From Meiothermus luteus (lineage in GTDB: Bacteria > Deinococcota > Deinococci > Deinococcales > Thermaceae): a DNA stretch of 32,476 nt. The position numbers and the translations under genes were made by a program. The stretch spans positions 1-32,476 of the forward strand of contig NZ_QWKZ01000024.1 of the NCBI RefSeq assembly GCF_003574085.1, given 5' to 3'. Position 1 is the first letter of the stretch. Each line of letters begins with the position of its first letter. The notes beneath the pieces are model-generated. The model had not been told where the DNA came from. It was given only the letters and a program-made list of their open reading frames with translations, and did not search any database. Shown piece by piece: positions 2,150-19,557 of this stretch.

Positions 2150-3169
2150 ATGACCGGCCTGTACCGCCCCCTGCGCTACCACCGGGCCCTGCTTGCCTTG
2201 GCCTTGGTTCTGCCGGTCGCATTGCTTTTGGCGGCGGGGATGGGGGCCTACTATATCCCGCCCCTGGAGATTCCCCGCATCCTTTGGGAGAAGGCCGACC
2301 AGGCCTACGCGGTGCTGGTCTCCATCCGCTTTCCCCGGGTGGTGCTGGCCGCGGCGGTGGGGGCCCTGCTGGCCCTATCGGGCGCGGCGTTGCAAGGCCT
2401 CTTCCGCAACCCCCTGGCCGACCCGGGGCTTATCGGGGTGACCTCGGGGGCTGGGCTGGGGGCGGCCATCTTCATCGTTTTGGTGCCGGGGGCAGGAGCC
2501 TTGCAGGTCTTCGCCCTGCCCCTCATGGCTTTTGTGGGGGGGCTTCTCACCACCCTTTTGGTCTGGCGGCTGGCCAGCAGCGGGGGGCGGGTGCAAGTCC
2601 TGACCCTGCTCTTGGCGGGCATCGCCCTCAACGCGGCGGCGGGGGCCCTGATTGGCCTCCTCATCAGCCGGGCTACCGACGAGCAGCTCAGGAGCCTCAC
2701 CTTCTGGACCCTGGGGGGCTACGGCGGGGCCACCTGGCCGACCCTGCTGGCCATGGCCCCCACCGGGCTGGTGGCGGTCTGGGGCCTGATGCGCCTGGCC
2801 CGGCCCCTCAACGCCTTGGTGCTGGGAGAGCGGGAGGCCTTCTACCTGGGGGTGAACCTCGAGCCCTTCAAGCGCCGGGCGGTGGCCTTCTCAGCCCTGG
2901 CGGTGGGTACCGCGGTGGCCGTGGCAGGCGGGGTGGGCTTCATCGGGCTGGTGGCCCCCCACCTCTTCCGGCTTCTGGCCGGCCCCGACCACCGCTACCT
3001 GCTGCCCGGGGCCACCCTGCTGGGGGCCTCCCTTAGCGTCCTGGCCGACCTGGTGGCCCGCACCGCGGTAGCCCCGGCAGAGCTGCCGGTGGGGGTGGTG
3101 ACGAGCCTCCTGGGAGCCCCCTTCTTCATCTGGCTGCTGCTGCGCCACAAGCGGGAGGTGGCCCGGTGA
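2150..3169 (+). CDS. hmuU: Hemin ABC transporter permease HmuU (FecCD family)
   Basis: A 339-residue multi-spanning protein of normal BtuC/FecCD length (about ten membrane helices). The family signature LSGAALQGLFRNPLADPGLIG is present near residue 80, GRVQVLTLLLAGIALN at mid-protein, and GGVGFIGLVAPHLFRLLAG with ELPVGVVTSLLGAPFF at the C-terminus. It would form a homodimer in the inner membrane, passing heme from HmuT under the power of HmuV. The ATG at 2150 is the only usable start after the preceding in-frame stop; GAGGGGG sits very close to it. The stop overlaps the hmuV GTG start. Confidence 0.92.
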   Translation: MTGLYRPLRYHRALLALALVLPVALLLAAGMGAYYIPPLEIPRILWEKADQAYAVLVSIRFPRVVLAAAVGALLALSGAALQGLFRNPLADPGLIGVTSGAGLGAAIFIVLVPGAGALQVFALPLMAFVGGLLTTLLVWRLASSGGRVQVLTLLLAGIALNAAAGALIGLLISRATDEQLRSLTFWTLGGYGGATWPTLLAMAPTGLVAVWGLMRLARPLNALVLGEREAFYLGVNLEPFKRRAVAFSALAVGTAVAVAGGVGFIGLVAPHLFRLLAGPDHRYLLPGATLLGASLSVLADLVARTAVAPAELPVGVVTSLLGAPFFIWLLLRHKREVAR

Positions 3170-3963
3170 GCCTGTTGGTGGCCGAGGGCCTGGGCTACAG
3201 CGTGGCGGGGCGCCCCCTCTTGCAGGGGGTGAGCTTCGCCCTGGAGGCCGGGGAGGTGCTGGCGGTGCTGGGCCCCAACGGGGCCGGCAAGACCACCCTG
3301 CTGCGCCTCCTTTCGGGCGAGGCGCGGCCCAGCCAGGGCCGGGTTGAGCTCCTGGGACGGCCCTTGGAGCGCTATGGGGCCCTCGAGCTGGCCCTAGTGC
3401 GCGCGGTGCTGACTCAGCGGCGCGAGGTGGGCTTTCCCTTCAGCGCCTACGAGGTGGCCTTCCTGGGCCGGCTGCCCCACCTGGAGCGCCGGGCCGAAGG
3501 GCCTTTGGACCACGCCCAGACCGAGCAGGCCCTGGCCCATACCCAGGCCCTTCCCTTCGCCCCCCGCCCCTACCCCAGCCTCTCGGGCGGGGAGCAGAGC
3601 CGGGTGGACCTGGCCCGGGTGCTGGCCCAGGAGCCCAGGTTGCTCTTCCTCGACGAGCCCACCAACCACCTAGACCCGCGCCACCAGGTGGAGGTCATGG
3701 CCCTGTGCCGCCGGCTGGCCGAGGGGGGGTTGGGGGTGGTGGTGGTGTTGCACGACCTGAACCTGGCGGGGCTTTTCGCCGACCGGTTGTTGCTTTTGCA
3801 CCAGGGGCGGATGGTGGCGCTGGGCCGCCCCGCCGAGGTGCTGCGGCCGGAGCGGCTCGAGGCGGTCTACGGTCTGCCCTTCGCCCTGGCCCAGCACCCC
3901 AGCGGCCGCCCCTGGGTGATGCCGCTGGCCCAGGCTGAGCCCTCCGCGGTGCCGGGCCTATGA
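3166..3963 (+). CDS. hmuV: Hemin ABC transporter ATP-binding protein HmuV
   Basis: A 265-residue ABC ATPase with Walker A GPNGAGKTT (36-44), signature LSGGEQSRVDLARVLA, Walker B LLFLDEPTNHLD, and the switch histidine in VVVLHDLNLAG. Length and sequence fit the heme/siderophore importer branch (HmuV/FepC). It starts with GTG overlapping the hmuU stop (GTGA). The nearby hmuT and hmuU and the monooxygenase favour heme as the substrate. Confidence 0.9.
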   Translation: MSLLVAEGLGYSVAGRPLLQGVSFALEAGEVLAVLGPNGAGKTTLLRLLSGEARPSQGRVELLGRPLERYGALELALVRAVLTQRREVGFPFSAYEVAFLGRLPHLERRAEGPLDHAQTEQALAHTQALPFAPRPYPSLSGGEQSRVDLARVLAQEPRLLFLDEPTNHLDPRHQVEVMALCRRLAEGGLGVVVVLHDLNLAGLFADRLLLLHQGRMVALGRPAEVLRPERLEAVYGLPFALAQHPSGRPWVMPLAQAEPSAVPGL

Positions 3964-3974
3964 GAGGTTTTGCC

Positions 3975-4550
3975 ATGCAAGCGACCCTTCCTTCTGTTTT
4001 TGAGGTCATCCGCGCCCGCCGCTCGCTGGCGGCGGGCTACCTAGACAAGCCAGTGGAGCGCGAGAAGCTCGAGCAAATCCTGGAGGCCGCCCACTGGGCC
4101 CCCTCGCACGGCCGCACCGAGCCCTGGCGCTGGGTGGTTTTTGAGGGGGAGGCCCGGCGCCGGCTGGGCGAGGCCTTTGCCGAAAGCTACGCCCGCTCCT
4201 TCAGCGGCCCGGACTTCCGCCCCGAGCGTTATAAGGCCCAGCTCGAGCGGGTCTGGGAGGCCCCGGTCTGGATTGGGCTGGGGCTGGAGCCCAGCGGCCG
4301 CTTCCCCGAGTGGGAGGAGGTGGCGGCGGTGGCCTGCGCGGTGCAGAACGCCTGGCTGGCCGCTACCGCTTTGGGCCTGGCCGGTTTTTGGACCTCGGGC
4401 CGGCCGGTGGTGCACGAGCACACCGCGCGGGTCTGTGGCCTGACCCCACCGGCCCGTCTTCTGGGGTTTTTGTACCTGGGCTACCCGGCCGGGCCGCTCC
4501 CCCAGGGCGCGCGCGGAGACTGGCAGAGAAAGGTGGTGTGGAACCCATGA
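3975..4550 (+). CDS. Nitroreductase-family FMN protein of the heme operon
   Basis: A 191-residue nitroreductase-fold protein. FMN-binding features are RARRS (residues 13-17), WAPSHGRTEPWRW (41-53), and the C-terminal half with AVQNAWLAATALGLAGFW, then PPARLLGFLYLGYPAG. The ATG at 3975 has GAGAGG 7 nt upstream; the ATG at 3960 overlaps the hmuV stop and is the alternative (five more residues). It is clearly paralogous to the C-terminal part of the fusion at 10068, sharing APVWI, PEWEE, AVQN and RLLG blocks. Family members reduce flavins, nitro groups or, in some cases, ferric chelates. In this operon I infer a reductive step in heme or iron release; the true substrate is unknown. Confidence 0.8.
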   Translation: MQATLPSVFEVIRARRSLAAGYLDKPVEREKLEQILEAAHWAPSHGRTEPWRWVVFEGEARRRLGEAFAESYARSFSGPDFRPERYKAQLERVWEAPVWIGLGLEPSGRFPEWEEVAAVACAVQNAWLAATALGLAGFWTSGRPVVHEHTARVCGLTPPARLLGFLYLGYPAGPLPQGARGDWQRKVVWNP

Positions 4551-4885
4551 GCTGCCCGCACCTGCGCCGGCTAGCCACCCTGGGCGAGTTTCGCTACATC
4601 GAGAGCTGCCCTTGCAGTGGGGGCATTGTGCACCTTTCCTGGGACGTGGCCACCCTGCACCTCTGCTTCAAGGACTTTGCCTGGCTGGCCGCGGTGGTGG
4701 AGGAGGCGGTGGGGAGGGGCAGCCCCGATCTGCCCCTGGTGCTTTGGGTGGGGAGCGTAGCCTTGCGGATGAGCCACGCCGAGGGCATAGAGCTTCGGGG
4801 GATGATCCGCACGGCCCTGGTGGAGCTGGGCCAGGCCCGGCTCGAGCCCAGCCAGGCTAGGCCTTTTGTGAGGTTGCCGAACTGA
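4547..4885 (+). CDS. Small Cys/His-containing protein of unknown function
   Basis: A 112-residue protein, start ATG overlapping the nitroreductase stop (ATGA). It has Cys3, Cys21, Cys23 and Cys40 with nearby His5, His28 and His37: CPHLRRL, then ESCPCSGG, then HLSWD and HLCFKDF. The spacing suggests a metal or cofactor site, and the overall pattern faintly recalls DUF6686-type small proteins. No signal peptide or membrane segment is seen. The tight coupling to heme genes suggests an accessory in heme or iron handling. I do not recognise the family with confidence. Confidence 0.6.
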   Translation: MSCPHLRRLATLGEFRYIESCPCSGGIVHLSWDVATLHLCFKDFAWLAAVVEEAVGRGSPDLPLVLWVGSVALRMSHAEGIELRGMIRTALVELGQARLEPSQARPFVRLPN

Positions 4886-8218: not shown

Positions 8219-9169
8219 ATGAAACTACGTAGCGTTGTTGCCTTGTTTGTTGCCCTAGGACTGGCCCTGGCCCAGACCCTTACCATTGAGCACGACGAGG
8301 GCACCACCCGGGTACCCCTCAACCCCCAGCGGGTGGTGGTGATGGACGAGGAGGCCCTGGGCTGGCTGGCCGCGCTGGGGGTGGGCGAGCGCATCGTGGG
8401 GCTGGCCAGCGCCTACCTGACCCCGGCCGACATTGCGGGCGGGCGCATCAAGCCCGAGGTGTTGCAGAAGGGCTTTTTGGCCCGGGCCAGGCTCAACAAC
8501 CCGGCCTATATTGGATCCTGGCTCGAGCCCAACCTGGAAACCCTGCTCACCCTCAAGCCCGACCTGATCGTGCGGCTCACCTGGAAGGGCAACAAGTACT
8601 ACGACAAGCTGAGCCAGATCGCCCCCACCTTGGGCTATGAAGAAGGCGGCAAGGGCTTCTGGGAGCGGGGCCTGCGCGACCTAGGGCGCATCTTCGGCAA
8701 GAGCACCGAGGCCGAGCGCATCATCGGCCAGGTGCGGGGGGCCTACCAGGCCGCGGCCGCCCGCTTGCGCAACGCGGGGGTCTTCCAGAAATACCCCAAG
8801 GTGGTGGTGGTGGCCCCCTTCGCCGGAGGGGCCAACTGGGTCTACACCAACGTGCGGCTCATCCCCGACCTGCGGGCCATGGGCTTCAAGGACGGCTACA
8901 CCCCCAAGGAGGTCACCCTGGGCGTGGGGGCCCAGATCAGCGACGAGGCCCTCATCAGCCTGGACAAACAGACCCTGGTGGTGGTCTTCCCGCCCGGCGG
9001 CCAGTACGACGGCTCCAAGGCCTTCTTCGACAGCCCGGTGGGGCAGAAGCTCAAGGACCAGGCCATCCTCTACACCCCCGAGCCCTTTAGCCCCTACAGC
9101 GGCCCGCTGGTGAGCCTGCGCAACGTGAGCGAGCTAACCCGGCTGATTCTGGAGAAGGTGAAGCCGTGA
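8219..9169 (+). CDS. Ferric-siderophore-type ABC substrate-binding protein (1)
   Basis: A 316-residue exported binding protein of cluster A-8 (FepB/FhuD/FecB type). Signal peptide 1-19 (FVALGLALAQ), no lipobox cysteine. N-lobe block NPQRVVVMDEEALGWLAALGVG, hinge region SWLEPNLETLLTLKPDLIVRL, then a C-lobe ending near residue 316. AAGGAG (8206-8211) lies 7 nt upstream of the ATG. A 63-nt gap separates it from the FTR1 gene, so it may start a new transcript. The stop overlaps the next binding-protein gene. No permease is adjacent; the ligand is unknown. Confidence 0.85.
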   Translation: MKLRSVVALFVALGLALAQTLTIEHDEGTTRVPLNPQRVVVMDEEALGWLAALGVGERIVGLASAYLTPADIAGGRIKPEVLQKGFLARARLNNPAYIGSWLEPNLETLLTLKPDLIVRLTWKGNKYYDKLSQIAPTLGYEEGGKGFWERGLRDLGRIFGKSTEAERIIGQVRGAYQAAAARLRNAGVFQKYPKVVVVAPFAGGANWVYTNVRLIPDLRAMGFKDGYTPKEVTLGVGAQISDEALISLDKQTLVVVFPPGGQYDGSKAFFDSPVGQKLKDQAILYTPEPFSPYSGPLVSLRNVSELTRLILEKVKP

Positions 9170-10059
9170 GGGCCTGGGGTTTGCTTGCGGTGGCGTTGGG
9201 TTTTGGGCTGGCCCTGGCCCAACCCTGCAACGGCCGGTGGGTCAAACATGCGATGGGAGAAAGCTGCGTGCCCAAGGTGCCGCAGCGGGTGGTGGTGCTA
9301 GACACCGGCGAGTTGGATAGCGCCCTGGCTCTGGGAGTCAAGCCGGTGGGGGCGGTAACTGCCACGCCCAATCAGCCCTTTCAGCGCTACCTGGGTAGCC
9401 AGACCCAGGGTATTGAGGTGGTGGGCACCATTGCCCAGCCCAGTCTGGAGAAAATCCTGGCCCTGCGGCCCGACCTCATTCTCACCAACAAGCTTCGTCA
9501 TGGCGCCATCTACGACCAGCTCTCCCGCATCGCCCCCACGGTGATGGCCGAGAGCGTAGGGGTGGTCTGGAAGGAAAACCTCTTGCTGGCTGGAGAGGCC
9601 CTGGGCCGCAGCAGCCAGGCCCGGGTCTTGCTGGCCCAGTACGAGCGGCGGGCCGGCCAACTCCGTAACCGCCTGGGGGGGCGTGGGCGATTGCCCAGCG
9701 TAAGCATCCTGCGATTTGTTCCAGGCCAGATTCGCAGCATGAACAAGGCCAACTTTATCGGCACCATCCTGAGCGATATTGGTCTACCGCGTCCGGCTTT
9801 TCAGAACAAGGATACCTTTGCCGATTACATCTCCCTCGAGCGCCTGCCTGACCTGGACGCCGATTACCTCTTCTACTCCACCTTCGGAGACCCGCTTAAA
9901 ACCGACCAGAACGCTGTGCTGGCCAGCCCGCTGTGGGGCCGGCTGAAGGCGGTGCAAAACAAGCGGGCTATCGCCGTGGACGACGACACCTGGTTTTTGG
10001 CCATCGGGATTCTGGGGGCCCACAAGGTCATGGAGGACCTTGAACGCTTCCTGCGCTAG
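9166..10059 (+). CDS. Ferric-siderophore-type ABC substrate-binding protein (2)
   Basis: A 297-residue exported cluster A-8 binding protein with signal peptide 1-19. The mature start HAMGESCVPKVPQRVVVLD and the hinge PSLEKILALRPDLILTN resemble FecB/YfiY-type receptors. Cys21 and Cys34 bracket the mature N-terminus, and the protein at 12685 has the same two cysteines at the same residue numbers, which suggests a conserved disulfide. It starts at a GTG overlapping the previous stop (GTGA). It is a receptor without its own channel. The substrate is probably a ferric citrate or siderophore-like chelate, by family only. Confidence 0.85.
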   Translation: MRAWGLLAVALGFGLALAQPCNGRWVKHAMGESCVPKVPQRVVVLDTGELDSALALGVKPVGAVTATPNQPFQRYLGSQTQGIEVVGTIAQPSLEKILALRPDLILTNKLRHGAIYDQLSRIAPTVMAESVGVVWKENLLLAGEALGRSSQARVLLAQYERRAGQLRNRLGGRGRLPSVSILRFVPGQIRSMNKANFIGTILSDIGLPRPAFQNKDTFADYISLERLPDLDADYLFYSTFGDPLKTDQNAVLASPLWGRLKAVQNKRAIAVDDDTWFLAIGILGAHKVMEDLERFLR

Positions 10060-10067
10060 GAGGATTT

Positions 10068-10946
10068 GTGACCACCACCGACCTGACCCCCGAGCGGCTT
10101 TCGGCCTACCTCGAGCACATCAACGACGACCACGCCGAGGAGCTGCTGGCCACCATCAAGGCCCTGGGCGGTCCGGAGTGGGCCGAGGGGGCCGAGATGA
10201 CGGCGCTCGGCCCTGAGGGCTTCACTGCCTTGGTCTGGGACGGCGAGCAGAGCGCCCGCTTTGAGCATCGCTTCGCTGAGCCCGCCAGAGATGCCCTGCA
10301 CCTGCGGGAGATGCTGGTGGCGCTGATGAGCCGGCCCCAGCCGGCCCACCGGCCCTACCCCAGCTTTGATGCGGACGCCCTCGAGGCCATCATCCGGGGG
10401 CGGCGCAGCTACGGGGTGCAGGCCCTAAAGCCCGACCCGGTGCCCCGCGCCCTCATCGAGCGCTGCTTGGACGCGGCCCGCTACGCCCCCAACAACGGGC
10501 GCACCCACCCCTTCCGCTTCGTGGTCATCACCGGCCCCGAGGCCAAGCAAAGGCTCTGGGCCAAGGTGCAGGAGGTTTTCCCCAAGGCCCTGCCGGGCTA
10601 CGAGCCGCGCTGGCTGGAGAGCTACCGCAAGCTCATCTTCGGGGCCCCGGTCTGGATTGCCATCGGGATGCAACCCCGCCGCGAGCGGCCTATGCCGGAG
10701 TGGGAGGAGCTGGCCGCGGTGAGCATGGCGGTGCAGAACCTGCACCTGATGGCCGCGGCCCAGGGCCTGGGGGGGCTTTGGGCCAGCGGCCCGGTGGCTA
10801 CCCACCCCGACCTGGCGGCCTACTTCGGCTGGGCCGAGCCCCCCGACCGGCTTTTGGGGCTTTTCTACATGGGCTTTGCCAAGCGGGCTTTGGCCCCGCG
10901 CAAATACCCCAGCTTAGAGAGCCTGGTGCGCTGGGAAGAGGATTAA
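10068..10946 (+). CDS. DUF2470-nitroreductase fusion protein
   Basis: A 292-residue cytoplasmic protein with two parts. Residues 1-88 match DUF2470, the domain found at the C-terminus of HugZ-type heme utilization proteins and in plant GluTR-binding protein: EHINDDHAEELLATIK, then ALGPEGFTALVWDG and REMLVALM. Residues 100-292 are a nitroreductase: GRRSYG (111-116), YAPNNGRTHPFRFVV (139-153), APVWIAIGM, PEWEELAAVSMAVQN and PPDRLLGLFYMGF. The GTG start has AGGAGG upstream. The C-terminal part is a paralogue of the protein at 3975. The fusion couples a heme-associated domain to an FMN reductase fold, so I infer a role in heme or tetrapyrrole reduction or iron release. Confidence 0.85.
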   Translation: MTTTDLTPERLSAYLEHINDDHAEELLATIKALGGPEWAEGAEMTALGPEGFTALVWDGEQSARFEHRFAEPARDALHLREMLVALMSRPQPAHRPYPSFDADALEAIIRGRRSYGVQALKPDPVPRALIERCLDAARYAPNNGRTHPFRFVVITGPEAKQRLWAKVQEVFPKALPGYEPRWLESYRKLIFGAPVWIAIGMQPRRERPMPEWEELAAVSMAVQNLHLMAAAQGLGGLWASGPVATHPDLAAYFGWAEPPDRLLGLFYMGFAKRALAPRKYPSLESLVRWEED

Positions 10947-10956
10947 GGAGGTCTGG

Positions 10957-11847
10957 ATGCGGCAGCTAGTGGTTTTGCTGTGGACGGCTTTGCTCTTGGC
11001 GCAGGCCCAACCCCTGCGGCTGGTGGACGCGACCGGCCAGGAGATTGCGGTTGCCTCCACCGAGCGCATAGTGAGCCTGGACATGACCAGCACAGAGATT
11101 CTCTTCGCCTTAGGGGCAGGCCCCAAGGTGGTGGCCCGCGACGGCAGCTCGGTCTACCCCCCTGAGGCCCAGAAGTTGCCGGTGGTGGGTCTGATGGCCT
11201 TCCCTTACGTTGTAGACAACATCCTGGCCCAAAACCCTACGGTGGTGGTGGGCAAGGTAGGCCTCAAGCCTGACGATCTGGCGGCTCAATTGAAGGCCCG
11301 AGGGGTTCCGTATGTGCAGGTTCCCGCCGAGCCGGGGGTAGAGCCGACCAAAGCCCGGATTCGCCTGCTGGCAAAACTGGTGGGGCAGGTAGAGCGGGGT
11401 GAGGCCTTGGTGGCGGCCCTCGAGCGCGACCTGGCCCAGCTCAAACCCTCGAGCGCTGTGCTGAGGGGTGTTTTTATGTACATGCGGGGCCCCAGCATGG
11501 TCTTTATCTGTGGGCGCTCGTCCAACACCGCCGGGCTGATAGAGCTCGTGGGGGCGAAAAACGCCGCCGACTGGGATGAGTGCCGCCCCAGCAGCCCCGA
11601 GCTTTTGGCCCAGCTCAACCCCGACTTCGTGGTGGTGCTGCAAAGTGGCTTGGGGTCTGTGGGCGGGCTGGAGGGGTTTTTGCGGTTGCCCGGTGTGGCC
11701 CAGACGCAAGCCGGACAGGCCCACAGGGTCATTGCCGTAGCCGACGGCCTGAGCGCTGCCGGAGGGCCCCGGCTGGGGAAGGCGGCCCAGGCCTTGCACC
11801 GGGCTATCTTTGAGCACTCCGGGTTTGTGGAGGTGAACGAGCCCTAG
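10957..11847 (+). CDS. Second HmuT-like hemin-type binding protein
   Basis: A 296-residue exported protein with signal peptide 1-18 and the HmuT block STERIVSLDMTSTEILFALG. It aligns with the HmuT at 618 over its whole length (TTEILFALG/STEILFALG, GQVERGEAL, SVGGLEG, LPGV). However, the position equal to heme-region Tyr79 is Leu79 (LPVVGLM instead of LPTVGY). Cys185 and Cys209 are kept. AAGGAGGT (10945-10952) lies 4 nt above the ATG. No permease follows, so it could share HmuUV or bind a different tetrapyrrole or chelate. The loss of Tyr suggests altered ligation. Confidence 0.85.
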   Translation: MRQLVVLLWTALLLAQAQPLRLVDATGQEIAVASTERIVSLDMTSTEILFALGAGPKVVARDGSSVYPPEAQKLPVVGLMAFPYVVDNILAQNPTVVVGKVGLKPDDLAAQLKARGVPYVQVPAEPGVEPTKARIRLLAKLVGQVERGEALVAALERDLAQLKPSSAVLRGVFMYMRGPSMVFICGRSSNTAGLIELVGAKNAADWDECRPSSPELLAQLNPDFVVVLQSGLGSVGGLEGFLRLPGVAQTQAGQAHRVIAVADGLSAAGGPRLGKAAQALHRAIFEHSGFVEVNEP

Positions 11848-11870
11848 CCAAAAAAAACGGCCAAATCCTA

Positions 11871-11890
11871 AGTAAGTCAATCGGAAATAT
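11871..11890 (+). promoter_or_regulatory. Conserved upstream element, copy A (AGTAAGTCAATCGGAA)
   Basis: This intergenic element matches copy B at 16800 at 13 of its first 16 positions, and similarity continues upstream (CAAATCCT versus CAAACCC). Both lie in short gaps before iron-locus genes. It may be an operator or a leader element. Confidence 0.4.
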
Positions 11891-11919
11891 GTGTTTTGGT
11901 GTGGGGGTAGCCGAGGACC

Positions 11920-12672
11920 ATGGTTTACGCGGTATCAAGGGTGTGGCTGGCCTTTCCCGACCTCGAGCGGGCCGCCGAGACCTACGCCCGTCTGGGCTTT
12001 TGGGTCATTCGGCGCAGACCGGGCTGGGCCCAGATTTTCCTGGCCGATGGTGTGGTGCTGGAACTATTTTCCCTGGCCCATCTGCCGCTGAACCGGGGCT
12101 GTGGCCTTGGTGGAGAAAGCGAGCTACTGGAGCGTCGTCGGCGTTTCTATGAGGGGAAGAAGGGCCTTCTGGACTATGCCCTGAGCCACACTGCCTCCCT
12201 TGTGCCGCTCCCGGCGCAGCTCGAGCAACGGGATATTCCCTACGAGGTGATAGGGGAGAGGCTTTTGCCCCAAATGGTCTTGTGCCCACCGCCGCTGCCG
12301 CTGTGGCTCGAGCCTCCCGCTCCCCTCCCTGTGTCCGAGCAGACCCAACACCCCAATGGGGTGACCGGCCTGCACGCGCTGGTGGTGGGGAGCCCAGCCT
12401 ACCCGGCAGCGCTGGCCCAGCACCGTCGCCTGCTGGGTCCCCCGCTGGGCTTTGAGAATCACGAGGGCCAAAGACGGGCGGTGTTTGCGGTGGGGCATCA
12501 CTTTATCTACCTGCAAGGGGCCAAGCGGGAAGGGCTTTTGGGCCTCATCCTGCGCAACCGGTATGCCCTGTGGGGAGCGCTCGAGGCCGAGCAGACCCTA
12601 GGGGTGCTGCTGACGTTGGTGGGCGACCCGGTCTTTGAGCTGGCCGGGGACTCGGCCCCGGATGCCGACTAG
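11920..12672 (+). CDS. VOC (glyoxalase-like) family protein
   Basis: A 250-residue soluble protein. The N-terminus is a vicinal-oxygen-chelate module: VWLAFPDLERAAETYARLGF, then AQIFLADGVVLELFS. A second half around residues 140-200 (VTGLHALVVGSPAYPAALAQH and HFIYLQGAK) looks like a second VOC repeat, as in the glyoxalase_3 group. Metal ligands of glyoxalase I are not obvious, so it may be a binding or dioxygenase-like protein. It follows a 72-nt gap that holds the conserved element, and is 12 nt upstream of a binding-protein gene. The ribosome site (GAGG) is weak. Its role in the iron locus is unknown; chelate resistance or cleavage is possible. Confidence 0.7.
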   Translation: MVYAVSRVWLAFPDLERAAETYARLGFWVIRRRPGWAQIFLADGVVLELFSLAHLPLNRGCGLGGESELLERRRRFYEGKKGLLDYALSHTASLVPLPAQLEQRDIPYEVIGERLLPQMVLCPPPLPLWLEPPAPLPVSEQTQHPNGVTGLHALVVGSPAYPAALAQHRRLLGPPLGFENHEGQRRAVFAVGHHFIYLQGAKREGLLGLILRNRYALWGALEAEQTLGVLLTLVGDPVFELAGDSAPDAD

Positions 12673-12684
12673 GAAAGGAGTGCT

Positions 12685-13614
12685 ATGAAGCGTATAGGGA
12701 TTTTGTTGGTGTGGATGACCCTGCTGGGGCTGGCCCAGGCTCAGTGCGGCGGGCGGCTGGTTCAGCACGCCCTGGGCGAAAGCTGCGTGGTGGGGGTTCC
12801 CAAGCGGGTGGTGGCGCTGGAATGGACTTACGTGGAAGACCTGCTGGCTTTAGGCGTGCAGCCGGTGGGGGTGGCCGACATCAAGGGCTACCAGGAGTGG
12901 GTGCGTATCCCCATAGCGCTGGATAAGAGCGTTGTGGATGTGGGCACCCGGGCCCAGCCGAGCCTCGAGGTGCTCACCACCCTCAAGCCCGACCTGATTC
13001 TGGCCCCGGCCTTCCGGGTGCGGCAGATTTACCCCCGCCTCGCCCAGATTGCCCCCACCCTGACCTTTGACCCGTTTACTGAGGGGGGCAACCAGTACGC
13101 CGAGATGGTGCGCACCTTCCAGACCATCGCCGAGGTGCTGGGGCGCAGCACCCAGGGCCGCACCGTCCTTACCCGGATGGAAACCCGCTTCGCCCAGGCC
13201 CGCCAGACCCTGCAAAAAGCGGGCCTGTTTGGGCAGCGCTTCGTGCTGGCGCAGGCTTTTACCAGCCGGCAAAACCTCGCCACCATGCGCCTGTTTACCC
13301 GCAACAGCCTGGTCAGCCAGGTGCTGGAGCAGATCGGCCTCAAAAACGCCTGGGGGGACAAGCCCCAGCCCTACGGCTACACCGAGGTGGGGCTCGAGGC
13401 CTTGAGCCAGATCAAGACCGACCACTTCATCTACATCGTTCAGGAGAACGACAACGTCTTTGCCGGCAGCAGCGTGGAAGCGCTTTGGAAAAACCTGGAC
13501 TTCGTGCGCAACCGGCGCGCCTACCGCCTGCCCGGCAACACCTGGACCTTCGGCGGGCCGCTCTCGGCCGAGGGGTTGGTGGAGGCAGTAGTGGGAGCCA
13601 TGACCCGGAGGTAA
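12685..13614 (+). CDS. Ferric-citrate/siderophore-type ABC substrate-binding protein (3)
   Basis: A 309-residue exported cluster A-8 protein of FecB/FatB type. Signal peptide 1-18, then QHALGESCVVGVPKRVVAL. The hinge is PSLEVLTTLKPDLILAP, and the C-lobe has PYGYTEVGLEALSQI, the pattern typical of ferric-dicitrate-like receptors, ending in NRRAYRLPGNTWTFGG. Cys21 follows Gln-Ala-Gln, so it is not a lipobox; with Cys34 it mirrors the pair in the protein at 9166. AGGAAAGGAG lies just upstream of the ATG. It is joined by a 3-nt gap to the next receptor gene. No own permease is adjacent. Confidence 0.87.
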   Translation: MKRIGILLVWMTLLGLAQAQCGGRLVQHALGESCVVGVPKRVVALEWTYVEDLLALGVQPVGVADIKGYQEWVRIPIALDKSVVDVGTRAQPSLEVLTTLKPDLILAPAFRVRQIYPRLAQIAPTLTFDPFTEGGNQYAEMVRTFQTIAEVLGRSTQGRTVLTRMETRFAQARQTLQKAGLFGQRFVLAQAFTSRQNLATMRLFTRNSLVSQVLEQIGLKNAWGDKPQPYGYTEVGLEALSQIKTDHFIYIVQENDNVFAGSSVEALWKNLDFVRNRRAYRLPGNTWTFGGPLSAEGLVEAVVGAMTRR

Positions 13615-13617
13615 GGG

Positions 13618-14556
13618 ATGCGCAGCATATTCTGGCTTGCCGTAGCGCTGCTTTCGGGGCTAAGCCTGGCCCAGTACCCCATGCGGATCCAACACGACGC
13701 CGGCGATGCCGTGATTCCCAGGAAGCCCGAGCGAATCGTGGTACTCGGCGAGGAGTTGATGGAGCTTTTGATTCCTCTGGGCGTCAAGCCGGTAGGTTAC
13801 GGCTCAAGCCGCATGAGCGGGGTGCGGGTGGGGGGAAGGGTCGAGGGGCTGACCTACTACCGCCCCGAAGAGATCGGCCCCGCGGTTTTTGTGGGGGACG
13901 CCTACACCCAGCCCAACTTGGAGGCCATCACCGCGCTCAAGCCCGACCTCATCCTCTTCTGGGCCACCGCGCCTAAACCGGTGGCAGAGGCCCTCAAGAA
14001 AATTGCCCCTACCGTGGGCTGGGACTATAACCGCGACGAAAAAGTAGGCTGGCGCCGGGCCTTCACCGAGACAGCCCGGATGCTGGGGCGGGATAAGCAA
14101 GCTGAAGAAGCGCTGAAGCGCTACGATGCTCAACTCGAGGCCTACCGTCTCAGGGCAGCTCCCTTTGTGGCCCGCAGGCCCAGGGTGACCTTGCTGTTCT
14201 TCTACAACGAGGAGACCACCGGCATCTTTGGTCCCCGCTTCGGTTTTTCCATCGCCCTAACCCGCTTGGGCTTTGAACTGGCGGGCATCCCAGGGGTCTC
14301 TATCCCCGACCGTTCCTACGCCCCTATCTCGAGCGAAGTGCTGCTCAACGTGCAAAGTGACTGGGCCATCTACTTGCGGCCTAAAAGCCCAGACGGCCGC
14401 TACCCCGAACTGACCAGCGAGCGCATGCTCAAGCAGAGCAAGGTGCCCATCTACCGATTCTTGCTTGATGTGCAAGAACCCCAGTCCGGGCCTGTTACCG
14501 ACCTGCGCCGCATCGAGGGCATCCTCCGCTTGCTGGAGGCTGGTCCGCAAAACTAG
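13618..14556 (+). CDS. Ferric-siderophore-type ABC substrate-binding protein (4)
   Basis: A 312-residue exported cluster A-8 protein. Signal peptide 1-19 (ALLSGLSLAQ), N-lobe RKPERIVVLGEELMELLIPLG, hinge QPNLEAITALKPDLILFWA, and C-lobe LLFFYNEETTGIFGPRFGF. It diverges from the other receptors, with more aromatic residues in the C-lobe, which suggests another ligand. Its ATG lies 3 nt after the previous stop, preceded by GGAGGTAAGG. The following flavodoxin-like gene is 13 nt downstream. Confidence 0.85.
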   Translation: MRSIFWLAVALLSGLSLAQYPMRIQHDAGDAVIPRKPERIVVLGEELMELLIPLGVKPVGYGSSRMSGVRVGGRVEGLTYYRPEEIGPAVFVGDAYTQPNLEAITALKPDLILFWATAPKPVAEALKKIAPTVGWDYNRDEKVGWRRAFTETARMLGRDKQAEEALKRYDAQLEAYRLRAAPFVARRPRVTLLFFYNEETTGIFGPRFGFSIALTRLGFELAGIPGVSIPDRSYAPISSEVLLNVQSDWAIYLRPKSPDGRYPELTSERMLKQSKVPIYRFLLDVQEPQSGPVTDLRRIEGILRLLEAGPQN

Positions 14557-14569
14557 GGAGGCGCGGGCC

Positions 14570-15046
14570 ATGTGGATTGTGGTAGGAACCCAGACCCTGG
14601 GCGCCCTCGAGGTGGCCGAGCGGCTGCAGGGCTGCCTGGGCCGGCTGGGCTGCTCTTCCCGGCTGGTCTTTGCTGAAGCGGTGGGCCCAGCGGAGCTTGC
14701 CCGGGAGGAGCGGGCGGTCTTTTGCCTTTCCACCTGGCGCTGGGTCCTGCGCCCTAAGGAACCCGCCGACCTACTGCCGCAAGGGGCGGCCTGGCTTTAC
14801 GAGCGCCTATGCAGGGAGCGGCCCGACCTCTCCCGGCTGCGCTACGCGGTTTGCGCCCTGGGGGAGCGGGCCTACGGCCCCTATTTCTGCAAGGCGGGGA
14901 GCATCTACACCCAGCTTTTGGGCTGGCTTGGGGCGCGGCCCTTGCAGGGCCGGCTCGAGCTGGCCTCGCCGGTGGATGGCTGGGAGGAGCTTGGCGACTG
15001 GGCCGTGGCCCTGGCGGCCAACCTGGGGCAAGGGGTGCGGCCATGA
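14570..15046 (+). CDS. Flavodoxin-like protein (MioC/CysJ N-domain type)
   Basis: A 158-residue protein with a flavodoxin fold. VVGTQTLGALEVAERL (residues 4-19) is the FMN phosphate loop, in the GTQTG-x-AE form of MioC and sulfite-reductase flavoproteins. RLRYAVCALGERAYGPYFCKAG (84-105) is the second FMN loop plus helix of the same group. It probably shuttles electrons in the cytoplasm. GGGAGG (14556-14561) is the ribosome site. Placed among siderophore receptor genes, it is a good candidate reductant for ferric chelates, or donor to the monooxygenase or nitroreductases; that link is inferred. Five cysteines (22, 28, 51, 90, 103) are notable. Confidence 0.75.
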   Translation: MWIVVGTQTLGALEVAERLQGCLGRLGCSSRLVFAEAVGPAELAREERAVFCLSTWRWVLRPKEPADLLPQGAAWLYERLCRERPDLSRLRYAVCALGERAYGPYFCKAGSIYTQLLGWLGARPLQGRLELASPVDGWEELGDWAVALAANLGQGVRP

Positions 15047-15064
15047 AGGCAGAAAGGAGCCTAG

Positions 15065-16765
15065 ATGCAGGAAAACCTTTTGCTGGAGGTGCGTGACCTA
15101 GCGGTGAACTTCCACACCGACGACGGGGTGGTGGAGGCGGTGAAGGGGCTTTCTTTTCACCTGGAGAAGGGTGAGACCTTGGCCATCGTAGGGGAGTCGG
15201 GCTCGGGCAAATCGGTGAGCGCTTTGTCCCTGATGGGGCTTTTACCTAAGCCCGCCGCGCGCATCGTGGGCGGACAGGCCCTTTTTCGCCGCAAAAGCGG
15301 GGAGGTGCTCGACCTCCTAAGGGCCGAAGAGGCTACAATGCGCCGGATCCGTGGCAACGAAATGGCCATGATCTTCCAGGAGCCCATGACCTCCTTGAAC
15401 CCGGTCTACACGGTGGGCGACCAGATTGCCGAGGCCATCGTGCTGCACCAGGGTAAGGGCCGCAAGGAAGCCCGCCAACTGGCCATAGAGATGCTCAACC
15501 TGGTGGAAATCCCCAACCCCCACAAGCGGGTGGACGACTACCCCCACCAGATGTCGGGGGGGATGCGCCAGCGGGTGATGATCGCCATGGCCCTCTCCTG
15601 CAACCCCTCCCTGCTCATCGCCGATGAGCCCACCACCGCGCTGGACGTGATTATCCAGGCCCAGATTTTGGAGCTGATGAAAAAGCTCCAGGCCGAGATT
15701 GGCACCGCGGTGCTCTTTATCACCCACGACCTGGGGGTGGTGGCCGAGATGGCCGACCGGGTGGTGGTGATGCAGCATGGGCTAAAGGTGGAAGAAGCCG
15801 ATGTGTACACCCTCTTCAAGGCCCCCAAGGAGGCGTACACCCAGCGCCTCCTCGCCGCAGTGCCGCGCATAGACCAGGAAAAACCCGCCCCGCCCGAGCG
15901 GGCCACCCCGCCGGTATTGGTCAGGCTGGAGAACCTGCGGGTCTGGTTCCCTCTGCGGGCCGGGGTGCTCTCGAGGGTGGTGGGCCACGTCAAGGCGGTG
16001 GACGACGTCTCCCTCGAGGTCTACAAGGGCGAGGTGCTGGGGCTGGTGGGGGAGTCCGGTTCGGGCAAGACCACCCTGGGCCGCAGCCTGCTGCGCCTCA
16101 TTGAGCCCACCGGAGGGCGCATCTGGTTCAGTGGCCAGGAGATTACCCACCTGCCCAAAGAGGCGCTCAGGGCCTTCCGCCGCCGCATGCAGATTATCTT
16201 CCAGGACCCCTACGCCTCGCTCAACCCGCGCATGACCGTAGGCGACATCATTGCCGAGCCCTTGGTCATCCACCGGGTGGGCAGCCCTAAAGAGCGGCAG
16301 GAGCGGGTGGCCGAGCTTTTGGAGACCGTGCAGCTTTCCCCCGACCACGCCCGCCGCTACCCCCACGAGTTCTCCGGAGGGCAGCGCCAGCGTATCGGCA
16401 TCGCCCGGGCCTTGGCCCTCAACCCCGAGTTCATCGTAGCCGACGAGTGCGTCTCGGCCCTGGACGTCTCCATCCGCGCCGAGATTATCGCGCTGCTTAA
16501 GGAGCTTCGGGCCAGAATGGGCCTGACCCTGCTCTTCATCTCCCACGACCTGGCGGTGGTGGAGGACATCTCCGACCGGGTGGCGGTGATGTACAAGGGG
16601 AGGCTGGTGGAGGTCTCGAGCAGCCACCGCATCTACCGCGAGCCCAAGGACGAGTACACCAAGGCCCTGCTCTCGGCCATCCCCATCCCCGACCCCACGG
16701 TCAAGCGCGAGCGCATTCCCTGGAATCCGGAGGCCTATTCAGCGGCCCGCCAGAAGGGCGCTTGA
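15065..16765 (+). CDS. Fused double ATP-binding protein of an oligopeptide/nickel-type ABC transporter
   Basis: A 566-residue protein with two complete ATPase domains. Domain 1 has Walker A GESGSGKS (43-50), signature [15 protein letters not shown] and Walker [13 protein letters not shown]. Domain 2 has GESGSGKTT (329-337), signature [15 protein letters not shown] and [12 protein letters not shown]. Each half matches the DppD/DppF branch, and the fusion is of the GsiA/YejF kind. The Glu in DEPTT is kept in domain 1; domain 2 has DECVS, as usual for DppF relatives. No DppBC-type permease or DppA-type receptor is nearby, so it must serve a transporter encoded elsewhere. AAAGGAG precedes the ATG. 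Its stop overlaps the -35 box of the next promoter. Confidence 0.9.
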
Positions 16766-16790
16766 CGAGCCCTGGTAGAGGGGATAGACT
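16762..16790 (+). promoter_or_regulatory. Promoter of the FecCD-FepC-receptor-FecCD operon
   Basis: TTGACG (16762-16767), a 17-nt spacer and TAGACT (16785-16790) make a good sigma-70-type promoter. The TGA stop of the preceding ATPase gene is inside the -35 box. Initiation near 16797 would put the conserved element (16800-16815) right at the start of the transcript. Confidence 0.6.
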
Positions 16791-16799
16791 TCAAACCCG

Positions 16800-16820
16800 A
16801 GTAAGTTGATTGGAATACAC
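16800..16820 (+). promoter_or_regulatory. Conserved upstream element, copy B (AGTAAGTTGATTGGAA)
   Basis: It resembles copy A at 11871 and sits between the predicted transcription start and the ATG at 16821. That is a typical place for a repressor operator or for a leader signal. There is no Shine-Dalgarno here, so the element may also matter for initiation. Confidence 0.45.
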
Positions 16821-17822
16821 ATGCTAGGCCGCCCCGCCCTCCCCAGACCCGCCCTAATCCCCCTGCTGGCCCTGGCCCTGCTGGCCCTGGGCGTTTTGGC
16901 TCTGGGCACCGGGGCGGTGCGGATGGGGCCACTGGAGGTTCTCCAGGCCCTGGGCGCCCCGCGCGAGGAGACCCACACCCGCATCCTCTACGAGCTGCGG
17001 CTGCCGCGCATCCTGGTGGGGGCTTTGTGCGGGGCCTTGTTCGCGGCCTCGGGGGCCATCCTGCAAGGGGTGGTGCGCAACCCTTTGGCCTCGCCGGACA
17101 TCGTGGGGGTGGCGGCGGGGGCGGGGTTGGCCGCGGTCTTCACCCTGATTCTCCTGCCCCGGGCCCCGGCCTGGGCCCTGCCGGTGGGGGCTTTTGGGGG
17201 GGCTTTGGCGGCCTTTGGGCTGGTGTACCTGCTGGCCCGCAGGGCGGGAGAGGTACCGCCCATCCGGCTGGCCCTGATTGGGGTGGCGGTGGAGGCCTCG
17301 CTGGACGGGCTGCGCCGGCTCATTTTGGTCCGGGCCGACGACTCCATCGCCCAGGCCCTGATTTTCCTGAGCGGCACGGTTTACGGAGCCGACTGGGAGC
17401 GGCTTTTTCGGGTGCTGCCGTTCGCGGCCCTTCTCATACCCTTGGCCCTCTTGCTCCACCGGCGGCTCGATGTGCTCTCCTTTGGCGACGAGACCGCCAA
17501 GAGCCTGGGGATGCGCCTCGAGCCGGCCCGGCTGGCGGCTTTGGCCCTGGGTACGGCCTTGGCCGCGGTGGCGGTGATGGGGGTAGGCATCCTAGGCTTC
17601 GTGGGGCTCATCGCCCCCCACGCCGCGCGGCTGCTGGTGGGCCCTGGCTTTCGCCTGCTGCTCCCCGCCTCGATGCTCCTGGGGGCTTTGCTGGTGGTGG
17701 GGGCCGACACCTTGGGGCGGGGCCTGGTACCCCCGCTGGAGATTCCGGCGGGCCTGCTCACCACCCTTTTGGGGGCCCCCTACTTCCTCTACCTGATGCG
17801 AAAGGCAGGAAGGGTGCGATGA
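16821..17822 (+). CDS. Ferric-siderophore ABC permease (FecCD family), first of the pair
   Basis: A 333-residue membrane protein of BtuC/FecCD type with about ten helices. [21 protein letters not shown] is the family signature, [20 protein letters not shown] lies at mid-protein, and [21 protein letters not shown] with [16 protein letters not shown] at the C-terminus. The ATG at 16821 is preferred over an in-frame TTG at 16806, which lies in the conserved element; neither has a Shine-Dalgarno. Its stop overlaps the ATPase start (ATGA). It may pair with the permease at 19560, in the manner of FepD/FepG, or homodimerise. Confidence 0.88.
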
Positions 17823-18634
17823 ACCTGCAAACCCAACAGCTCACCTTAGGCTACGATGAGCGCCGCGTCATCGAGGGCCTCAACCTCTCCTTGCCCAGGG
17901 GAAAGATCACCGCCCTCATCGGCCCCAACGGCTGCGGCAAGTCCACCTTGCTGCGGGCCTTGGCCCGGCTTTTGAAGCCCCAGGAAGGGGCGGTGCTGCT
18001 CGACGGCAAGGCCATCCACACCCTGCCCACCAAGGCCGTGGCCCGCCAACTGGCCCTCTTGCCCCAGATGCCCCAGGCCCCCGAGGGGCTTAGCGTGGAG
18101 GAGCTGGTCTGGTTTGGCCGCTACCCCTACCAAAGCGCCTTTGGAGGGCGGAGTGAGCACGACCAGCGGGCAGTAGAGTGGGCCCTCGACCAGACCGGGA
18201 TGCGGGTCTTCGCCAAGAGGTCCCTGGAGACCCTTTCGGGCGGCCAGCGCCAGCGGGCCTGGATCGCCATGGCCCTGGCCCAGGAGACCTCCATTCTGCT
18301 CCTGGACGAACCCACCACCTACCTGGACCTGAGCCATCAGCTCGAGGTCTTGCAGCTCCTGCAAAGGCTCAACCGCGGGGAGGGCAAGACCATCGTGATG
18401 GTGCTGCACGACCTCAACCAGGCGGCCCGCTACGCCCACCACCTGGTGGCGGTGAGCGGGGGCCGGGTGGTGGCCGAAGGACCCCCTGAGGCGGTGCTCA
18501 ACGAGCGCATTCTGCGCGAGGTCTTCGGCCTCAAGGCCCACTTCCTGCGCGACCCCGAGACCGGCACCCCACACTGCATCCCCTACGCCCTGGCGCGTAG
18601 GGAACCCCTTGAACTGGTGGAGGAAAAACCATGA
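17819..18634 (+). CDS. Ferric-siderophore ABC transporter ATP-binding protein (FepC type)
   Basis: A 271-residue ABC ATPase with Walker [10 protein letters not shown], signature [17 protein letters not shown], Walker [13 protein letters not shown] and switch region [24 protein letters not shown] and [16 protein letters not shown] are typical of the FepC/FecE/FhuC branch, and the C-terminal [10 protein letters not shown] is a common tail of the group. Its start overlaps the permease stop and its stop overlaps the receptor start. It probably energises both FecCD permeases of this operon and could also serve the orphan receptors upstream. Confidence 0.92.
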
Positions 18635-19557
18635 AACGAATCCTGGCGGGTCTTCTGGCCCTACTGGGCCTGGCTTTGGCCCAGGTTCAGATCAAGCACG
18701 AGCTGGGCACCCTCACCCTGAACGCCCCGGCGAAGCGGGTGGTGGTGCTGGAGTACAGCTTCCTGGACACCCTGCTGGCCCTGGGGGTGAGCCCGGTAGG
18801 GGCCGCCACCGGCACCCAGGGCGGCGACCGTGGGCTGCCGCCCTACCTCAAAGCCCGCGCTGCGGGCGTAACCTCGATTGGCTCGAGGGCCCAGCCCAGC
18901 CTCGAGGCCATCCTGGCGGTAAGGCCCGAGGTCATCGTGGCCGACGCCTTCGTACACAAAGACCTGATTCCCCAGCTCGAGCGCATCGCCCTTGTGGTGG
19001 CCTTCCAGTCGCGGCGGGGCAGCTTCGACGATTTGAACCAACAGGTGCTGGAGCTCGGGCGGCTGGTGGGCAAAGAGGCCCAGGCCCGGCAGATTCTGGA
19101 AGACCAGGCGCGGCTTTTGCAAAAGGCCCGGGCCTTCGCCAACCCCAAAGCCCCCCCGGTTTTGCTGGGGGTGGCCACCCCAAGTAGCTTCACCGCCCAC
19201 TCCAGCGAGAGCTTCATCGGCTCGCTGCTGGAGCGGCTGGGCCGCAAGAGCCTGGCCAAGCCACAGAGCAACCAGACCCAGTACGAGCTGGGCCTGGAGG
19301 GCCTTTTAGCGCTGAACCCCGCTACCTTGGTGCTCTTCACCGCTCCAGACGAAACCCCCATCGTGCGCGGCTGGGCCAAGAACCCGCTTTGGCAGAGGCT
19401 CGAGGCGGTGAAACGGGGCCGGGTGTACGAGTTTGACCGCGACAACTGGACCCGGGGCCGGGGCCCCCTGGCCACCCGGCTCATCCTGGCCGAGCTGATC
19501 GACAGCGGCCTCCTAGCCGACCGACCCGCAGCGGGCCGCTACGCCTTCAAGCCCTGA
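18631..19557 (+). CDS. Ferric-siderophore-type ABC substrate-binding protein (5), with its own channel
   Basis: A 308-residue exported cluster A-8 receptor. Signal peptide 1-18 (LLGLALAQ), then [20 protein letters not shown], hinge [18 protein letters not shown], and a C-lobe with [22 protein letters not shown], the FecB/FatB-like pattern. It lacks the Cys21/Cys34 pair of the proteins at 9166 and 12685. It starts on an ATGA overlap with the ATPase gene. It is the only non-heme receptor here placed between permease genes, so it is probably the dedicated receptor of this transporter. Confidence 0.9.

Follow-up and report, generated by a model that had tools for sequence, protein, structure and literature searches.

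A DRI (DUF2470)–nitroreductase fusion in a heme/iron island of Meiothermus luteus, probably linking heme to enzymatic iron release

Introduction

Nitroreductases are normally FMN homodimers, and siderophore-interacting proteins (SIP) are flavin-dependent ferric-siderophore reductases. DUF2470, now named DRI, occurs together with a split-barrel catalytic domain in the HugZ/ChuZ heme oxygenases, which lie in heme/iron loci. In Dri1 (Ssr1698) of Synechocystis, a single-domain protein with no reductase attached, heme is held in a dimer through His79 of each chain; His79 shares a zinc with His16, His21 and Glu76, and Arg90 forms salt bridges with the propionates (PMC11014987). Heme binding is lost in the His16Ala-His21Ala variant of Dri1, as it is upon mutation of His9 and His14 of ChuZ, and the His16/His21 pair is conserved across most DRI proteins, in contrast with Glu76, His79 and Arg90, which are conserved in cyanobacteria only (PMC11014987). 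The published DRI fusions involve PNPOx-like, heme oxygenase, TMEM254 and haemolysin-like domains and, in Pseudomonadota, SIP-like domains; nitroreductase is not among the listed partners (PMC11014987).

A nitroreductase with a role in iron release has been described in Staphylococcus aureus, where NtrA reductively liberates the iron held by staphyloferrin A. It also supports IsdG/I-dependent heme use, and an iruO ntrA double mutant uses heme very poorly (PMC6018153, PMC7139808). Here we analyze an open reading frame that joins a DRI domain to a nitroreductase domain, located in a window (the whole stretch of 32,476 nucleotides under analysis) of contig NZ_QWKZ01000024.1 of Meiothermus luteus.

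Results

The open reading frame runs uninterrupted from a GTG codon to the stop and encodes 292 residues, with the following features:

10068–10946, + strand: DRI (DUF2470)–nitroreductase fusion gene (open reading frame and Pfam matches; kept in genomes G011 and G020)
10110–10325, + strand: DRI/DUF2470 domain, residues 15–86 (Pfam match and alignment to Dri1)
10116–10118 and 10131–10133, + strand: codons of His17 and His22, which align with Dri1 His16 and His21
10392–10874, + strand: FMN nitroreductase domain, residues 109–269, YdjA-like (profile and structure-sequence matches)

In hmmscan searches, both matches clear the curated cut-offs by far: DUF2470 (PF10615, cut-off 22 bits) at residues 15–86 with E = 2.5e-10 and 41.2 bits, and Nitroreductase (PF00881, cut-off 23.5 bits) at residues 109–269 with E = 8.9e-27 and 94.7 bits. 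An earlier note on this DNA, which had proposed the PF10615 search, was thus right in recognizing DUF2470 and in calling the remainder an FMN nitroreductase. Its description of the N-terminus as HugZ-type does not carry over to the protein as a whole: the fusion scores 19.3 bits with the HugZ model TIGR04109, whose cut-off is 240, and has no PNPOx match. Since the HugZ split barrel is absent, the fusion is not a HugZ heme oxygenase, even though it shares with HugZ/ChuZ both DUF2470 and a heme/iron locus.

Among solved structures, the best match of the N-terminus is Ssr1698/Dri1 (E = 1e-4) and those of the C-terminus are YdjA-type nitroreductases (E = 3e-16). The minimal nitroreductase E. coli YdjA (3BM1) is the closest of these by sequence, and in the same alignment RRS and GG-W-SG segments are common to both proteins. 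YdjA, however, has no DRI domain, and the fusion falls far under the curated YdjA equivalog cut-off (NF008088, 66.1 bits against 183); identity with BluB was likewise rejected (TIGR02476, 62.5 bits against 150). In a nitroreductase tree, the fused forms group with a remnant from genome G040 (support 99/99), their deeper placement being left unsettled by the tree. AlphaFold2 predictions on the three-row alignment of the fusion reached a pLDDT of 48.8 and yielded no usable structural model.

Alignment of the DRI half with Dri1 places the heme-binding histidine pair at His17 and His22 in the window and in the G011 and G020 orthologues. In contrast, the zinc-mirror residues are not retained: Glu76 is replaced by Leu77 and His79 by Arg80, and the Arg90 column is variable, with Gln91 in the window and Arg or Lys in the orthologues. 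Arginine at the His79 column is also seen in many HugZ-type rows, and His78, kept in all three fusions, lies two columns before it and cannot be called a third ligand. By homology, the DRI half is predicted to bind heme through His17 and His22; because Glu76, His79 and Arg90 are not kept, the affinity might be low or the mode of binding different, and a zinc-mirror geometry cannot be presumed. Elsewhere in the collection, a single-domain DUF2470 protein (G048:C30:36676–36900, in the window's order) carries the Dri1-type zinc-mirror Glu and His (SAEDAHQVL) and has no Arg90 equivalent; this Glu/His combination was called cyanobacteria-specific in the Dri1 paper (PMC11014987).

Orthologues of the fusion are found in a Meiothermus metagenome-assembled genome (G011, 97% identical) and in a sister genus (G020, 91%), and a scan of genome contigs returned only the orthologue of Meiothermus sp. 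SKYB64 (NZ_JANXCG010000015.1), with the same 97% match as that of G011. The G020 orthologue has an ATG start codon exactly where the window's open reading frame starts (MTTTDL), which supports the assigned start; that of G011 begins with GTG one residue later. Across the G011 and G020 orthologues the fusion and its island are kept and both domains are under purifying selection, with dN/dS values of 0.05–0.13 for DRI and 0.03–0.23 for the nitroreductase that are rough given the few substitutions. The linker is far less constrained than either domain, and this combination of two domains under purifying selection and a loose linker argues for a working protein. Chance or an assembly artefact does not account for the fusion.

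The fusion lies in a heme/iron island of about 20 kb (window positions 163–20555) that includes an operon with an IsdG-like monooxygenase:

163–621, + strand: IsdG/HmuQ-like heme monooxygenase (PF03992; likely start near 292)
618–1535, + strand: hemin-type binding protein, hmu operon
1532–2143: DUF3386 protein, hmu operon, encoded after the binding protein and before the permease (present in G011 too)
2150–3963, + strand: hmu operon genes for FecCD-type permease and ABC ATPase (from sequence reading and conserved neighbours, not a Pfam scan)
3975–4550, + strand: stand-alone nitroreductase closing the hmu operon, 40–42% identical to the fused domain
4547–4885: 112-residue protein with no Pfam match
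9166–10059, + strand: siderophore-type binding protein (YfiY/SirA-like), ending 8 bp before the fusion gene
10957–11847, + strand: hemin-type binding protein (5GJ3, HmuT/ShuT-like), starting 10 bp after the fusion gene
14558–15046, + strand: flavodoxin (MioC-like) of the same island

The 112-residue protein is followed by an imelysin, an FTR1-type permease, two binding proteins and the fusion; after it come the hemin-type binding protein, a weakly glyoxalase-like protein, two more binding proteins, the flavodoxin, which is a possible electron carrier, a DppD-DppF-like double ATPase and, finally, a FecCD/ABC/binding protein/FecCD set. Six Peripla_BP_2 binding proteins surround the fusion within 8219–19557, in addition to the one at 618–1535, and the double ATPase in this region has no obvious permease of its own. 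Open reading frames similar to the 112-residue protein recur in the heme/siderophore loci of G011, G020, G010 and G016, and another adjoins a HugZ-type gene in G042.

The monooxygenase is closest in structure searches to 1IUJ (TT1380), followed by HmoB, MhuD and IsdI. The IsdG-type Asn, Trp and His are apparently present, as the N of MFVTMN and the W and H of NWVNSPEFKEGH, the latter two ten residues apart. A profile search of the genome found no PF01126 heme oxygenase, and no bilin-handling gene was identified within the window. The setting that the earlier note had described, a heme/iron locus with a hemin-binding protein beside the fusion and an IsdG-type monooxygenase in its company, is thus borne out, and the heme/chelate link recurs in the islands of the orthologues.

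The stand-alone nitroreductase is present in the monooxygenase operons of the window genome and G011; the G020 island lacks it and keeps the fusion. The transporter proteins of the G020 island are mostly 88–96% identical to those of the window (a few small genes, 69–85%), at 79% identity for SecA. In G010 and G016, SecA is 90–91% identical to the window's, yet the island proteins are mostly 55–80% identical and the nitroreductase is unfused. The island therefore resembles its counterpart in another genus more than the islands of closer relatives, and has most likely been transferred horizontally between lineages.

Among the 111 genomes of the phylum searched, DUF2470 in any form was found in five and the fusion only in the window genome, G011 and G020. 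The survey of fusions suggested by the earlier note thus yielded two orthologous cases, and no further fusion was seen in some 830 genomes, 96 of them with DUF2470 (17 listed loci lie outside those examined); the other DUF2470 open reading frames examined are single-domain or have another partner, mainly a HugZ-type region on the N-terminal side. Viral contigs contained no fusion, and plasmids gave only partial nitroreductase matches, none covering 80% of the query. A candidate in G040 (61% identity over residues 178–291) was discarded, being a C-terminal remnant of only 121 residues. This remnant (L053:9478–9843) adjoins a DNA methyltransferase-like open reading frame and is next to FecCD/ABC genes of the window's kind.

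A general association of nitroreductases with neighbouring DUF2470 genes was also rejected as weak, at 2 of the 43 regions (0.66 Mb). In one, the heme/siderophore locus of G042, a HugZ-type DUF2470 protein occurs with a separate nitroreductase located between binding-protein genes. In the other, from the Actinomycetota genome G584 (L097/L078), a short DUF2470 open reading frame lies beside a pyridine-nucleotide-type oxidoreductase and a divergent nitroreductase.

Discussion

Taken together, these data suggest, with a probability that we place at about one half, that the fusion is an iron-release FMN reductase, cytoplasmic and dependent on NAD(P)H, whose heme-binding domain serves in regulation or docking. 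Hydride taken from NAD(P)H by the nitroreductase half would provide electrons for iron complexes brought into the cell; the recipients would most likely be ferric siderophores and/or heme degradation by the IsdG-like monooxygenase. The DRI half would bind heme via His17/His22 and adjust or position the reductase according to heme. The reductase is thus probably heme-gated; its use of FMN and NAD(P)H is predicted from the nitroreductase family, and its substrate, whether heme, biliverdin or a ferric chelate, and the direction of regulation are likewise putative.

This interpretation is supported by domain matches well above the Pfam cut-offs, by the histidine pair kept in all three orthologues, by the purifying selection seen on each domain, and by the position of the gene, which is flanked by a siderophore-type binding-protein gene on one side and a hemin-type one on the other, within an island that also encodes an IsdG-like monooxygenase. 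The genome, moreover, has no canonical heme oxygenase. Against it stand the loss of the zinc-mirror residues, the nitroreductase already present in the hmu operon, the rarity of DUF2470-nitroreductase co-location outside this group and the low pLDDT. With the NtrA precedent, the DRI-SIP fusions and the G042 locus, an FMN reductase that releases iron and has one domain responding to heme is nonetheless the most economical reading. The likeness to NtrA, which is not described with a DRI domain, is one of family, iron release and functional IsdG/I link, and the DRI-SIP fusions are a parallel whose catalytic fold is SIP instead of nitroreductase, a distinction drawn from their published description.

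The protein might also serve the monooxygenase, with DRI docking heme or the heme-loaded enzyme and FMN providing the electrons for ring opening, so that heme would be cargo and not a signal. The IsdG-like gene in the same island, the IruO/NtrA precedent (PMC6018153) and the retention of the fusion in the G020 island lacking the stand-alone nitroreductase all fit such an electron donor; we nevertheless consider it unlikely, with a more obvious donor encoded in the monooxygenase operon of the window genome and G011, and with the fusion directly following a siderophore-type binding protein. That the fusion is a plain quinone, flavin or xenobiotic reductase, in which DRI no longer binds heme and merely stabilizes the protein, would agree with the many substrates on which most nitroreductases act, the loss of the third heme/zinc ligand and the narrow distribution. 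Purifying selection on the domain with His17/His22 and conserved placement in a heme/iron island make this unlikely as well.

Very doubtful, in turn, is a nitroreductase dimer whose DRI domains hold a tetrapyrrole (heme, biliverdin or another) that the enzyme reduces directly, and just as doubtful the corresponding arrangement, in which the dimer would pair two DRI domains with one heme between them near FMN as a self-contained heme/bilin reductase of a new type. A heme-binding histidine pair beside a flavin enzyme and the broad chemistry of the nitroreductase superfamily (as in the BluB-like score of 62 bits) speak for it, but the zinc-mirror residues and a bilin-handling gene in the window are both missing, and it has no structural support.

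Returning to the iron-release reductase, the earlier note's suggestion of an undescribed route holds only in part. Reductive iron release by NtrA (PMC6018153, PMC7139808) and DRI-SIP proteins (PMC11014987) were already known; the novelty lies in the pairing of DRI with a nitroreductase, an apparently unrecorded combination of narrow distribution. The two domains were not found together in the literature searched, a scope that leaves aside the Pfam/InterPro architecture tables, and absence from all databases is not claimed.

DRI domains have been proposed as heme-dependent regulatory modules with targets known in few cases, and a covalent fusion names the partner: here, a predicted FMN reductase in a heme/siderophore import island, which should be convenient to purify and test as a protein of a thermophile group. 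The fusion probably links heme to enzymatic iron release. Control of the reductase by heme, if it exists, would tie heme sufficiency directly to iron release; if the enzyme itself handles heme, a reductase would be added to the small set of heme-processing enzymes.
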